Source of the DNA: Terriglobales bacterium
GTDB lineage: Bacteria > Acidobacteriota > Terriglobia > Terriglobales > Acidobacteriaceae
DNA length: 44,089 nt
Reading direction: 5' to 3'
NCBI GenBank assembly: GCA_016201265.1
Contig: JACQDD010000018.1
Location: 1 to 44,089 of the forward strand
The position numbers were made by a program, and so were the translations under genes. Positions within the stretch are counted from its first letter, which is position 1; the number at the start of each line of letters is the position of its first letter. Below, one piece after another: positions 20,531 to 41,277 of this stretch. The notes under the pieces were generated by a model. That model ran no database searches. It saw nothing but the letters and a program-made list of their open reading frames with translations, and had not been told where the DNA came from.

Positions 20531-20635
20531 AGCAATTCGTCGTTGGTCGATAGTCGCTGGTCGTTCGCGGTTCGCAAGAGCCGCTGCCTGACCCAAAGAT
20601 CCCAAGCGACTAGCGACTAGCGACCAGCGACTGCT
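20531..20635. repeat. Oligomer-arm inverted repeat element D2 (GTCGCTR unit)
   Basis: Left arm TCGTCGTTGGTCGATAGTCGCTGGTCG; right arm CGACTAGCGACTAGCGACCAGCGAC (rc GTCGCTGGTCGCTAGTCGCTAGTCG); 22/25 identical by eye. Confidence 0.85.
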
Positions 20636-26265: not shown

Positions 26266-27429
26266 ATGCCCACAGCGCAGCAGGAAACCCGGCGCCAGCC
26301 CCGCTTGAAGGTGGAAGCCGAGCGCTTCTGGCAGCGCGTCAGCGAAGGGCTGGAAGTCAACCAGCTCTGGTCGCAGTTTGAAAAGGACGCGCGCTCGAGT
26401 TATCGCTTTTATTCCTCGGGGCTGGCAGGTCAGGCAGAAGGCGAGTCCGGTGTTCGCCGTGCCTGGCTTATTACCAAGGCGCTGTTCTGGGCCATCCTGG
26501 AAAAGCTGAGCCCGGCGCGGCGTGTGCTGCTGCTGCTCGCGCTGATTCTGCTTTTCTTTCCGGTTGGCGGATTCACCTTCGGCGCCAAGGCGGGCCAGGT
26601 CCACCTGGTCGAGTTCGACCTGCGGCTTTGGGGCGGACTGTTGCTGCTGGTCGTGCTGCTGCTCGAACTCGCCGACCGGGTGGTGATGAAGCGCGATCTG
26701 GAAATTGCTAAGGACATCCAATCGTGGCTTTTGCCGGGAACTCCGCTTCAACTTCCGGGTTATCAGATCGCCTATGCGACGCGTCCGGCCAATACTGTGG
26801 CCGGCGACTACTACGACGTCATCCTGCGTCCAGGAGAAACGCGCGGCGAAGACCGCGTGCTGTTCGTGGTGGCCGACGTGGTCGGCAAAAGCATTCCGGC
26901 GGCCATGCTGATGGCAACGTTCCAGGCCAGTCTGCGTACGCTTTCGAGCAGCCGTGTCTCGCTGGCGGACCTGGTCGCGGGGCTCAATCGCTATGCCTGC
27001 ACCAACAGTCAGGGCGGTGTGCGCTTCACGACGGCGTTCTTTGCGGAACTGGATCCAGTGACCGGCGCTGTGGTCTATGTCAACGCCGGGCACAACGCAC
27101 CCATTCTGCGGAAAAGCTCCGGAGTGGTCGAGCGCCTGGAGACGGGCGGCGTGCCCCTCGGGATTTCGACCGAGTTCACACATCAGGCAGGCACGGCGAA
27201 CCTGGGTGCCGGAGACTGGCTGGTCATCTTCACCGATGGAGTCGTTGAAGCAGTGAACACGAAGGGTGAAGAATACGAAGAACCGCAGCTCATTCGGCTG
27301 GTGGATGAGGCGGCAGCGAGTACCCCGGCAGAAATGCTACGCCGAATGTTGGGAGCACTGGACGCTTATGTCGGTCACACGCCGCAGCATGATGATATGA
27401 CGTGTTTGCTGCTGAAAAGAAGCACTTAG
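26266..27429 (+). CDS. Membrane-anchored SpoIIE/RsbU-type PP2C phosphatase
   Basis: AKDIQSWLLPGTPLQLPGYQIAYATRPANTVAGDYYDV; NAGHNAPILR; FTDGVVEAVN; HDDMTCLLLKR. Confidence 0.93.
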   Translation: MPTAQQETRRQPRLKVEAERFWQRVSEGLEVNQLWSQFEKDARSSYRFYSSGLAGQAEGESGVRRAWLITKALFWAILEKLSPARRVLLLLALILLFFPVGGFTFGAKAGQVHLVEFDLRLWGGLLLLVVLLLELADRVVMKRDLEIAKDIQSWLLPGTPLQLPGYQIAYATRPANTVAGDYYDVILRPGETRGEDRVLFVVADVVGKSIPAAMLMATFQASLRTLSSSRVSLADLVAGLNRYACTNSQGGVRFTTAFFAELDPVTGAVVYVNAGHNAPILRKSSGVVERLETGGVPLGISTEFTHQAGTANLGAGDWLVIFTDGVVEAVNTKGEEYEEPQLIRLVDEAAASTPAEMLRRMLGALDAYVGHTPQHDDMTCLLLKRST

Positions 27430-27506
27430 CACTTAGCCGTTAGCCTTTAGCCAGACACTGCAGGGAGGAGGATTTGGCTAGATGCTAAGTGCTAAATGCC
27501 AAGTGC
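27422..27506. repeat. Oligomer-arm inverted repeat element D3 (CTTAGCA unit)
   Basis: Left GCACTTAGCACTTAGCCGTTAGCCTTTAGCCA (27422-27453), right arm rc GCACTTGGCATTTAGCACTTAGCATCTAGCCA (27475-27506); 26/32 identical by eye. Confidence 0.9.
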
Positions 27507-28852: not shown

Positions 28853-29061
28853 AGCCCGGACTATTCATGAAGCCCGCTTTGAAGGGGCGCGTGTGAAAAT
28901 TGGGGCTTCAGCCCCTGGGGTCGGATTCCCTTTTCAACCCAACAGGAGGCTTCCAACGGCTCACCCCGGCGGCTAAGCCGGGATTCTTTTTGCTCCGCAT
29001 CGGCGCGGCTCAAAGCCGCGCCCCTTCAAAACCGTGCCATTGCTCATGAATAATCCGGGCT
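28853..29061. mobile_element. ~209 bp MITE-like element with terminal inverted repeats
   Basis: AGCCCGGACTATTCATGA (28853-28870) vs TCATGAATAATCCGGGCT (29044-29061, rc AGCCCGGATTATTCATGA); inner inverted pair GAAGGGGCGCG / CGCGCCCCTTC; internal hairpins. Confidence 0.7.
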
Positions 29062-29150: not shown

Positions 29151-29197
29151 TGTCAAAAATTGTCAGTGCCCGGTCTGGAAATGTCATATCGGTGTCA
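29151..29197 (+). promoter_or_regulatory. Helically phased TGTCA array, candidate PilR-type upstream activating sequence
   Basis: TGTCA at 29151, 29161, 29182, 29193 plus degenerate GGTCT at 29172; spacing 10/11/10/11 bp. Confidence 0.55.
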
Positions 29198-29293
29198 ACG
29201 GGGAGAATTCTTGAGAGGTGACTGAAATCGGGAAGGTGCCTGAAAGGAAGGGCTTGTGGGCCAACCCGGCACTTACTTAGGTCACTTTCCCTC

Positions 29294-29309
29294 TGGCCCG
29301 CAGAATGCA
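29294..29309 (+). promoter_or_regulatory. Candidate sigma-54 -24/-12 promoter
   Basis: TGGCCCGCAGAATGCA with GG-N10-GC spacing, 57 bp upstream of the pilin ATG. Confidence 0.6.
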
Positions 29310-29365
29310 ATAGTGACAGCCGAGTTGGTCATCCGACCATCACAGTCAAACGGAGACGAGAACAA

Positions 29366-29863
29366 ATGCGGAAACAGAAGGGCTTCTCACTAATCGAATT
29401 GCTGATCGTGGTGGCGATCATCCTGATCATCGCTGCTATCGCGATCCCGAACCTGCTGCGTGCGCGCATTGCGGCCAACGAGTCGGCTGCGGCCAGCGGG
29501 GTTCGCACCATTAACACAGCGGAAGTATCGTACAATTCTGCTTATCCGACGGTGGGCTATTCAACCACTCTTGCGCAGTTGGGCCCGGGTGGCGTTGCCG
29601 CCACATGTCCGAACCCGCCAGCCTTCGGAACGGCTTGCCTGATTGACGGCGTGCTGGCTGCAGGCGTTAAGGGCGGTTATACGTACGGGTATGCACCAGT
29701 TGTCGGCGGCGCCCTGAACACGGGTTACGCGGTCTCTGCAGACCCCACAACGGCGAACCAGACGGGTGTTCGCAGCTTCTGCTCCTTTGAAGATGCGGTG
29801 GTTCGTTACACCCCGAGTACGCCGCTAACCGCGACTTGTCCTCCCGCCACGCTACCGCTGTAA
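29366..29863 (+). CDS. pilA: Type IV pilin / prepilin
   Basis: MRKQKGFSLIELLIVVAIILIIAAIAIPNLLRARIAANES class III prepilin signal. Confidence 0.95.
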   Translation: MRKQKGFSLIELLIVVAIILIIAAIAIPNLLRARIAANESAAASGVRTINTAEVSYNSAYPTVGYSTTLAQLGPGGVAATCPNPPAFGTACLIDGVLAAGVKGGYTYGYAPVVGGALNTGYAVSADPTTANQTGVRSFCSFEDAVVRYTPSTPLTATCPPATLPL

Positions 29864-29942: not shown

Positions 29943-30196
29943 GGGGCAAAATTCTGCTTTGGGACAAAAGCAAAGTATCGAACTGCGGCTTCCGGACTGA
30001 CACTTTCTGTCAAGGCGGCGCTTTGGCTCGGAGGGGAGGTGCCTCATCATTTTCCCAGGCGCAATGAACTTCCGTGGTACCAATGGCTTACGGGTTCGTC
30101 CCACTGGCCGAAGATGCCCTGCGGAACGGCCCCGCGCATGCATTTGAAAGAGTGACTGGCCCGGTTCTTAGCCGGAGCTACAGTATGGGAAACACT

Positions 30197-30712
30197 ATGC
30201 GGAAGCAGAAGGGATTTTCGTTAATCGAGCTGCTGATCGTGGTCGCGATCATCCTGATCATCGCTGCTATCGCGATCCCGAACCTGCTGCGGGCCAGGAT
30301 GGCAGCCAACGAGTCATCCGCCGCCGCGGCGATACGGAGCATTACCTCGGCTGAGGTTGCGTACTACGGTGCTTTCCCGACCATCGGGTATGCAGTTCAA
30401 CTCCAGGATCTCGGGCGCACTGCCCCGTGCGTCCCGGTGCCGACTAGCGCTTGCCTTCTCGACAACAACCTTGCTAATGCCGTCCCGGGAAGCGGGGGAC
30501 ACAGCGGCTACCAGTTCCTCGCCACCGGACTCAACTTTGGGAGCCCGCTTAACAGTGCTTTTGTGGCCGGAGCGACTCCGGTAACTCCAAGCAGTTCAGG
30601 AACCCGCGATTTTTGCTCGATCACGGATGGAGCGTTGCGCAGCCAAACAACGACGGGTGGAGTTCCCCCGAATACGCTCGCGGCTTGTCTGGCCTATGCT
30701 ATCGCGCAGTAG
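30197..30712 (+). CDS. Type IV pilin / prepilin, tandem paralogue
   Basis: MRKQKGFSLIELLIVVAIILIIAAIAIPNLLRARMAANESSAAAAIRSI; start ambiguous (ATG 30185 or 30197). Confidence 0.93.
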   Translation: MRKQKGFSLIELLIVVAIILIIAAIAIPNLLRARMAANESSAAAAIRSITSAEVAYYGAFPTIGYAVQLQDLGRTAPCVPVPTSACLLDNNLANAVPGSGGHSGYQFLATGLNFGSPLNSAFVAGATPVTPSSSGTRDFCSITDGALRSQTTTGGVPPNTLAACLAYAIAQ

Positions 30713-30932: not shown

Positions 30933-31874
30933 ATGGTTGCCATCGAAACGATCAATCTAGAGAAGACCTACGCGGTGGGTTTCTGGCGGAAGAAGCCGCG
31001 CGTGGCGTTGCGGCCGCTGAACCTGACGGTCGAGGAAGGCGAGGTCTTTGGCTTCCTGGGGCCGAACGGCGCCGGCAAGACGACCACGCTGAAGCTGCTG
31101 ATGGGGCTGGTCATCCCGACTGGGGGGACGGCTCGCATCCTGGGCAAGAATATCGACGAAGCGGAAATCAAAGCGCAGATCGGCTTCCTTCCGGAACAGC
31201 CCTATTTCTACGATTACCTGACAGCCAAGGAACTGCTCGAATACTATGCGCAGCTTTCCGGCGTGGAGCCTAAGGAGCGGACCCGCAAGATCGAGGCCAT
31301 GCTGGAGCGTGTGGGCCTGAAAGACGCCGCACGGGTCCAACTGCGGAAGTTCTCCAAGGGCATGCTGCAAAGGGTGGGCTTGGCGCAGGCCATCCTGCAC
31401 GACCCGAAAGTGATTTTTCTCGATGAGCCCATGTCGGGACTGGATCCCATGGGCCGGCGCGAGGTCCGCGACCTGATCGAAGAACTCAAGCAGCAAGGCA
31501 AGACCGTTTTCTTCTCGACCCACATCCTTTCCGACGCCGAAGCGCTGTGCGATCGGGTCGCGGTCATTCACCAGGGAGAACTGCGGGGGGTTGGCCACGT
31601 GGCCGAACTGACCTCGTCGGTTGCAGGCAAGGTGGAGCTGATTTGGAATGGAAGCGCCGTTCCGGATGGGTTCAGTGCACTGGGAGCGGAATGCCACATG
31701 AGCGGGGAGACGATACGCGCGGTGGTGCCGGAGGTGCAGCAGGAGGCGGCGCTGGAAATCCTGAGAAGGGAGCGGCTGCGGCTGAATTCGCTCACCCCCG
31801 TGCGCTCCTCGCTGGAAGAATATTACGTGCAAAAAGTGAGCCTGGCGGCCAAACCGGCGGGGGCGGCGAGATGA
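30933..31874 (+). CDS. ABC transporter ATP-binding protein
   Basis: [21 protein letters not shown] (Walker A), [18 protein letters not shown] (signature), [13 protein letters not shown] (Walker B). Confidence 0.97.
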
Positions 31875-32644
31875 GTCGAGTGGTGCGCATCGCCGCTAAC
31901 ACATTCCGCGAAGCCGTACGCGACCGCGTGCTTTATAACCTTATCGCATTCGCCCTGCTGCTTTCGGGGGCCGCGATCCTGGTGGGACAAATCTCCGTGG
32001 GCATCGAGCGGTTGGTGGTGGTGAACCTGGGGTTGACTGCGGTGTCGTTGTTCGGCGTGGTCATCGCCATCTTCATTGGCATCGGCTTGGTCTCGAAAGA
32101 GATGGAGAAACGCACGCTATACACGGTGCTCTCGCGCCCGGTGCGGCGCTGGGAATTCATCGTCGGCAAGTTCTTGGGGCTCACCGGGACGCTGTTCGTG
32201 AACACGTTTTTCATGGCCATCGGCGTCTTTGCGGCCCTGCTGTATGTTTCGCACAAGTTCCAATCGTCGGATGCCTGGATCCTGGTTGCGTTGTTCTTCA
32301 TCGTGCTGCAATTCCTGATTCTGTGCGCGCTGGCGCTGCTGTTCTCGTCGTTCTCATCCCCGCTGCTGTCGGCCGTGTTTGCCTTCTCACTGTTTGTGAT
32401 CGGCAGCTTCGCCGAGGATCTGCGCGGGTTTGCCAGGATGTCGCGGGGGCTGGCGCAAGGGCTGGCGACGACGGCGGCGTATCTGGTGCCGAACTTCTCG
32501 GCGCTGAACGTGATCGGGCAGGTAGCGCACGAACAACCCATCTCCGCGCATTTGATCGCCTACAACACGGCCTATGCGCTGGCGTATTCGGCGATGGCGA
32601 TCTGCGGCGCGGTGCTGATTTTCGAGCGCAGGAACCTGAAATGA
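31871..32644 (+). CDS. ABC transporter permease
   Basis: [31 protein letters not shown]; ~6 TM; 4 bp overlap (ATGA) with the ATPase gene. Confidence 0.9.
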   Translation: MSRVVRIAANTFREAVRDRVLYNLIAFALLLSGAAILVGQISVGIERLVVVNLGLTAVSLFGVVIAIFIGIGLVSKEMEKRTLYTVLSRPVRRWEFIVGKFLGLTGTLFVNTFFMAIGVFAALLYVSHKFQSSDAWILVALFFIVLQFLILCALALLFSSFSSPLLSAVFAFSLFVIGSFAEDLRGFARMSRGLAQGLATTAAYLVPNFSALNVIGQVAHEQPISAHLIAYNTAYALAYSAMAICGAVLIFERRNLK

Positions 32645-33558
32645 GCGGGTCGCGCAAAGTTACGGTCACGACGAGCGTGCTCCTGCTGTTTTCCCTGGCC
32701 AGCTCGGTATTCCTGCTGAGACGGCTCGACCAGGTGCGCACCAGCGCGACGCTGGAAGAAGTCCTGTATCTGAATTCGCCCAAGTGGGTCAGGCGCCTGA
32801 GCCTGGGCTACACCGGCTTGCTGGCCGACATCTACTGGACACGCGCGGTGCAGTATTTTGGCAGCAAGCATGTGACTAGAGCGACGGACTACAAGCTGCT
32901 GTCTCCGCTGCTGGAAATCACAACGACGCTCGATCCCAAGCTGATCGTGGCGTACCAGTTCGGAGCCAACTTCCTGGCGCCGAAGCCGCCGAATGGGGCG
33001 GGCCAGCCCGACCAGGCCATCGCCCTGGTCGAGTACGGCATCCGGAATAATCCTGACAACTGGAAGCTGTATTACGAGCTGGGCTTCATCTACTACTACA
33101 TGGAATCAAAGGATTACGCGAAGGCCGCCGAGGCATTCGAGCGTGGCGCCAAAGTGCCGAATGCGCATCCGTTCCTGCGCGTGCTGGCAGCCCAGATGGC
33201 GCAGCACGCGGGTGAAATCCAGACGGCACGCATGCTGTGGCAGACAGCCTACGCAACCACCCAGGACGATCTGATCCGGAAAAACGCAGTCGCGCACCTG
33301 CGTGCCTTGAAGGTGGATGAGGACATCACGGAACTTGAGAAGCTGGTCGCTGCGTACCGGCAACAGACGGGGCTGCCGCCGTCGAGCTTCAACGTACTGA
33401 TCGGCGCGGGCAGGCTGCTCGGGGTGCCGGTGGACCCAGATGGGAAACCCTACAGACTGGTGGATGGCCGCATCGAGTTGCGAAACCCGGAGGATTTCCC
33501 GTTCGTGGAGAAGGGGCTGCCGCCCGGATACGAACCGGGGCTGCCAAAGTTCCACTGA
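32641..33558 (+). CDS. TPR-type membrane-anchored protein
   Basis: MSGSRKVTVTTSVLLLFSLASSVFLLRRLD; NNPDNWKLYYELGFIYYYMESKDYAKAAEAFERG; 4 bp overlap with permease. Confidence 0.8.
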   Translation: MSGSRKVTVTTSVLLLFSLASSVFLLRRLDQVRTSATLEEVLYLNSPKWVRRLSLGYTGLLADIYWTRAVQYFGSKHVTRATDYKLLSPLLEITTTLDPKLIVAYQFGANFLAPKPPNGAGQPDQAIALVEYGIRNNPDNWKLYYELGFIYYYMESKDYAKAAEAFERGAKVPNAHPFLRVLAAQMAQHAGEIQTARMLWQTAYATTQDDLIRKNAVAHLRALKVDEDITELEKLVAAYRQQTGLPPSSFNVLIGAGRLLGVPVDPDGKPYRLVDGRIELRNPEDFPFVEKGLPPGYEPGLPKFH

Positions 33559-41167: not shown

Positions 41168-41277
41168 TTTGGTAATTCTGTAATCGGGTAATTTGGTAAT
41201 TTGAAGGCAAGTACAGAGTGGTTATGCGGTGTGACTTGAAATTGCGAAATTACAAATTTACCAAATTACACAATTCC
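41165..41277. repeat. Oligomer-arm inverted repeat element D5 (GGTAATTT unit)
   Basis: Left GATTTGGTAATTCTGTAATCGGGTAATTTGGTAATTTGAAG, right CTTGAAATTGCGAAATTACAAATTTACCAAATTACACAATTCC; AT-rich island in GC-rich DNA. Confidence 0.85.

Follow-up and report, generated by a model that had tools for sequence, protein, structure and literature searches.

What an array of short TGTCA repeats does upstream of a type IV pilin gene is the question raised by the locus described here. The window, i.e. the whole stretch of 44,089 nucleotides that was analysed, is contig 28 of a MAG of 2.93 Mb with a completeness of 76%, and the close relatives identified are likewise Acidobacteria MAGs, with soil and peat common among them. 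The pilin gene (29366–29863, forward strand, ATG at 29366) encodes a protein of 165 aa that matches the Pfam N_methyl (type IV pilin) model. A second type IV pilin gene (30197–30712, forward strand, start MRKQKGFSLIELL) follows, the two products being 56% identical, and 3' of both lie genes for an ABC-2 ATPase, an ABC-2 permease and then a TPR protein (30933–33555), which resemble the ABC transporter genes near pilA of Myxococcus. An element with 18-nt (94%) and inner 14-nt (100%) inverted repeats at its ends, present as one copy in the genome, is situated 5' of the array at 28853–29061. Other short clusters in the window, with a 5-mer recurring every 7–8 bp, are formed by TTAGC (27426–27451), AGCGA (20605–20631) and GTAAT (41172–41200). 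No known RNA families were found in the window by Rfam.

The TGTCA motif is located at 29151, 29161, 29182 and 29193 and GGTCT at 29172, exactly as had been reported in the first-pass annotation of this DNA, and the helical phasing proposed there was confirmed as well, with steps of 10/11/10/11 bp (mean 10.5 bp). The four TGTCA copies fall within 47 bp at steps of 10, 21 and 11 bp, the gap being filled by GGTCT. This cluster is local, since the window as a whole is depleted of TGTCA, containing 40 copies versus 60 expected from shuffles, and when the upstream 500 bp were shuffled 20,000 times with a first-order Markov model, four TGTCA within 50 bp never appeared. Repetition alone is weak evidence, because other complex 5-mers cluster likewise: four copies of any such 5-mer within 50 bp arose in 21 of 3,000 shuffles, and the window contains such clusters at 11 further places. 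These 11 places, together with a fifth element (29193) that is not conserved, are what could be said for a functionless chance cluster beside a genuine sigma-54 promoter. That explanation is rejected by the shuffles specific to TGTCA and contradicted by conservation, for three of the five elements are kept as half-sites in close relatives at an equal distance from the promoter, and the majority of pilin promoters, as well as all readable pilB upstream regions, contain the underlying palindrome; the chance explanation is therefore regarded as extremely improbable. It is conservation in relatives, not repetition, that decides that the array is non-chance.

In an alignment of 20 close-relative sequences, the window included, the conserved block reads TGNCA-AAATT-TGTCA ... 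GGTCTCTGAAAGTGTCA. It begins with a putative operator site 1 (29151–29165, forward strand, TGTCA-AAAAT-TGTCA), which has 9/10 matches to TGACA-N5-TGTCA and of which the relatives keep the left half-site as TGNCA and the right one as TGTCA. Hence the elements at 29151 and 29161 are preserved as half-sites, as is the one at 29182, which belongs to a weak candidate site 2 (29172–29186, forward strand, GGTCT-GGAAA-TGTCA, 7/10 matches). The block GGTCTC...GAAAGTGTCA at site 2 is kept in close relatives, so that GGTCT at 29172 is maintained as sequence despite its poor fit to a half-site, whereas the extra TGTCA half-site at 29193–29197 (forward strand) was found in the window alone. The most fitting description of the array is a single good palindrome accompanied by a weaker second site and a window-specific half-site; the repeat looks direct in the window because the left half-site of site 1 reads TGTCA. 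Absence of the array from close relatives with the same pilin would count against an enhancer, and when this was checked the array was present, leaving the reading unrefuted.

The presumed sigma-54 element TGGCCCGCAGAATGCA lies at 29294–29309 on the forward strand, with transcription predicted to start near 29320. The earlier claim of GG-N10-GC spacing holds, as GG (29295–29296) and GC (29307–29308) are separated by ten bases, and the -24/-12 element is conserved in close relatives. An aligned logo of 119 pilin promoters shows GG and GC ten bases apart in a TGGC/TGC context, and a distant upstream activator site, as expected of a sigma-54-dependent promoter, is present: the centre of the window palindrome is at -136 from the T of TGG. 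A single match to rpoN was detected in the genome (Sigma54_DBD, E 2e-59, C9:12475–12948), along with ∼15 full-length sigma-54 activators.

The same arrangement emerged when the regions upstream of 145 non-redundant pilin genes were compared among relatives. The pattern TGGY-N8-TGC is present in 99 of them, versus 5 on the reverse strand and 4.5 after shuffling, with nearly all matches at -100 to -70 from the start codon. Between -250 and -140, the most enriched 5-mer is TGTCA (99/145 versus 12.7 expected), followed by its reverse complement TGACA (74/145 versus 12.7). In the commonest layout, seen in 55 cases, TGTCA stands 10 bp downstream of TGACA, which constitutes the inverted repeat TGACA-N5-TGTCA. 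Half-site spacings peak at 10, 21–22 and 31–32 bp; additional half-sites therefore keep the helical phase. When the 119 sigma-54-type promoters were aligned on their -24/-12 elements, a palindrome of at least 8/10 was found in 105 (5.5 in shuffled sequences), its modal centre being at -137, next to the -136 of the window, while half-sites between -85 and 0 showed no enrichment (9 versus 17.2). These data also bear on the possibility that the -24/-12 match is accidental, in which case a sigma-70-type promoter would serve the pilin and the array would be bound by an activator or repressor of the ordinary kind. A copy of the operator without a sigma-54 element at pilB (see below) would suit such a scheme. 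However, TGG, TGC and their spacing are over-represented far above controls ∼70–100 bp before the start codon, and the operator is placed ∼110–137 bp upstream of the -24 box, which is the geometry of an enhancer, so that this alternative merits very little credence.

Several further elements are located between operator and pilin. A conserved block AGGTGACT occupies 29216–29223, and CTGAAAG at 29240–29246 (both on the forward strand) is the counterpart of a conserved TGAAAA block that is found in 47/119 pilin promoters versus 2.0 by shuffling. The latter is possibly a bend or IHF-like region; a strict IHF consensus between operator and promoter was found in 0/119 pilin promoters. AGGTCACTT (29279–29287, forward strand) corresponds to a GTNAC element ∼14 bp upstream of the -24 box, shared by 69/119 promoters versus 14.9 by shuffling. 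In the pilin mRNA leader, GTTGG-TCAT-CCGAC at 29324–29337 is kept in close relatives as GTTGGTCATCCAAC; the folding energy of the pilin leader is no better than that of shuffles.

Within its own genome, TGWCA-N5-TGTCA occurs at four places only, namely upstream of both window pilins, at C43:13415 and at C193:391. The candidate operator of the second pilin, TGACACTTTCTGTCA (29998–30012, forward strand), is a perfect palindrome and is followed by a predicted sigma-54 element CGGCCCCGCGCATGCA (30127–30142, forward strand), which has GG-N10-GC spacing and a -24 box beginning with C, and which also reads CGG-N9-TGC. The match at C193:391 (TGTCATCAGTTGTCA) falls where a small, unrelated ORF begins and was put down to chance. 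Judged from sequence, the convincing putative operators are thus three only: those of the two window pilins and that of pilB. A third pilin of this genome (C289:3754–4221, 60% identical) has neither TGTCA nor TGACA in the 300 bp upstream and apparently falls outside operator control. A wider regulon was also sought from perfect palindromes in relatives, and this idea was abandoned; no further targets are claimed, because the neighbours of palindromes outside pilins and pilB are diverse and often coding.

The site at C43:13415 precedes pilB at the head of a pilB-pilT-pilC-pilS-pilR cluster, the end of the site being 79 bp from the pilB ATG; this gene order agrees with the pilB-T-C-S-R order of Myxococcus. 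PilS matches the six-helix PilS domain PF25323, and PilR, encoded beside PilS among pilus genes, comprises a receiver (PF00072), an AAA+ domain (PF00158) with GAFTGA and a Fis-type HTH (PF02954). The operator is therefore common to the pilin promoters and to the operon of pilR itself, a feature that supports PilSR control. In 47 of the 58 genomes with both genes, pilB and pilR share contig and strand at a distance of 4.0–4.5 kb. Among 30 pilB loci, the own genome included, 29 were readable, and all 29 (again with the own genome) have a perfect palindrome that begins 88–148 bp upstream of the pilB start codon and sits inside a longer conserved GCGTTGACAATTTGTGTCAACGC, a palindrome of 23–25 bp. 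Downstream of the pilB operator, neither GG-N10-GC nor TGG-N9-TGC is in excess over shuffles. A sigma-54 promoter at pilB was accordingly dismissed: CGGAATACCCATTGCG at C43:13398 of the own genome is not conserved, and matches do not rise above shuffles. The pilB operator is the strongest link to PilR, yet it is without a sigma-54 promoter above chance, an unexpected finding for an activator that works through sigma-54 alone; either PilR may act at pilB on some other promoter, by repressing or tuning it, or the site may be bound by a different factor.

Two other features of the pilB upstream region deserve mention. A conserved ACCAAAGTTACT just upstream of the palindrome, at about -150 to -100 (C43:13380–13410 in the own genome), is similar to the GTNAC element that pilin promoters have ∼14 bp upstream of their -24 box. 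The leader that separates the operator from the pilB start has a conserved CGCGA ... TCGCG with a C-rich loop, possibly a leader hairpin; the Rfam search of the pilB loci yielded one insignificant match only and none for the leader.

As for the protein that binds these sites, GAFTGA is present in 30/30 PilR sequences, and the recognition region is almost invariant across the 30 orthologues. PilR-positive genomes contain 4.27 perfect palindromes per genome (1.22 for a reversed-pattern control), versus 1.66 in PilR-negative ones (control 0.93), where a small excess persists; the difference between the two groups has P = 1e-8, a value inflated by shared ancestry, as the presence of PilR follows phylogeny. 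Of the ∼15 sigma-54 activators, PilR was compared with one other, an NtrX-like paralogue encoded on the same contig as pilR (C43:7187–8542). The latter is found in 95 of 100 genomes and has LSFPGA instead of GAFTGA as its sigma-54 contact loop; it is therefore probably not a sigma-54 activator. It was rejected as the binder because it has no GAFTGA and also occurs where there are no sites; operator number follows PilR, not this paralogue.

It might still be supposed that both the enhancer and the sigma-54 promoter are real, but that the palindrome is bound by another regulator of the pilins and of pilBTCSR, be it a different sigma-54 activator of this genome or a non-sigma-54 factor. The number of activators encoded leaves room for such a protein, an operator stands at pilB where no sigma-54 promoter was found, and a conventional dimeric activator or repressor would match the 23–25-bp pilB palindrome as well. 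Nevertheless, pilR belongs to the operon headed by the operator, the number of sites follows PilR across genomes, the nearest other activator on the contig is disqualified as described above, and the first-pass annotation had quoted (C/G)TGTC for PilR of Pseudomonas, which reportedly binds such motifs in tandem. In addition, GTCT elements have been described for Pseudomonas PilR (PMC6058289). A different regulator is accordingly considered unlikely, though less so than either a chance cluster or a sigma-70-type promoter. On the comparative evidence, the TGTCA array is very probably a PilR enhancer of the sigma-54 promoter driving the 29366 pilin, and the predicted regulon also includes pilBTCSR and the other pilin of the window. 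The earlier proposal of a PilR-type enhancer with a sigma-54 pilin promoter is hence upheld in its main part, while its recurring unit has to be replaced: across the family this appears to be a palindrome rather than a (C/G)TGTC tandem, and of the four phased TGTC cores in the window, one (29193) has C or G before it.

The control of pilins by PilR and RpoN is already known elsewhere; the present case departs from the known ones in its palindromic unit and in the operator that pilBTCSR shares with the pilins. The system resembles PilSR/RpoN at pilA of Pseudomonas aeruginosa in its sigma-54 promoter and in upstream sites with a TGTC/GTCT core, in a membrane kinase PilS with a six-helix domain, and in a PilR composed of receiver, AAA+ and Fis-type HTH. 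In contrast to P. aeruginosa, pilSR is included in a pilBTCSR operon that itself bears the operator. PilR sites of Pseudomonas are described as having a TGT-N11-AGA of NifA type and GTCT elements close by as their hallmarks (PMC6058289), unlike the palindrome TGACA-N5-TGTCA that recurs here. In Geobacter, pilA is activated by PilR through RpoN (PMC2725144). An RpoN-dependent pilA promoter with PilR as activator is a feature shared with both Geobacter sulfurreducens and Myxococcus xanthus, but in Geobacter pilA adjoins pilR, whereas the pilins described here are on another contig than pilR. Dyad operators ∼100–150 bp upstream of -24/-12, with more than one site in helical phase, are also typical of NtrC/NifA-type enhancers, from which the present half-site, TGACA/TGTCA, differs. 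A literature search revealed no paper on the control of pilus genes in Acidobacteriota.

The array would act as an enhancer (upstream activating sequence) of the sigma-54 promoter in the following way. The membrane kinase PilS would activate the response regulator PilR, dimers of which would occupy the palindrome together with the phased half-sites beside it and assemble an ATPase ring; by looping, this ring would reach RNA polymerase-sigma54, and the pilin promoter would be opened. The operator copy at pilB could let PilR tune its own operon without sigma-54. That PilR of Acidobacteriota uses one palindromic operator in both capacities, at the pilins as an enhancer that serves sigma-54 from a distance and at pilBTCSR as a close-in site that works without sigma-54, is put forward tentatively, the odds being somewhat against it.

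The comparative evidence yields a testable operator, names a candidate regulator and outlines a small regulon, in which one operator is common to the sigma-54 and the apparently non-sigma-54 promoters of one pilus system. If this is true, a PilR feedback circuit via pilBTCSR and pilR would balance the supply of pilin and the assembly machinery.
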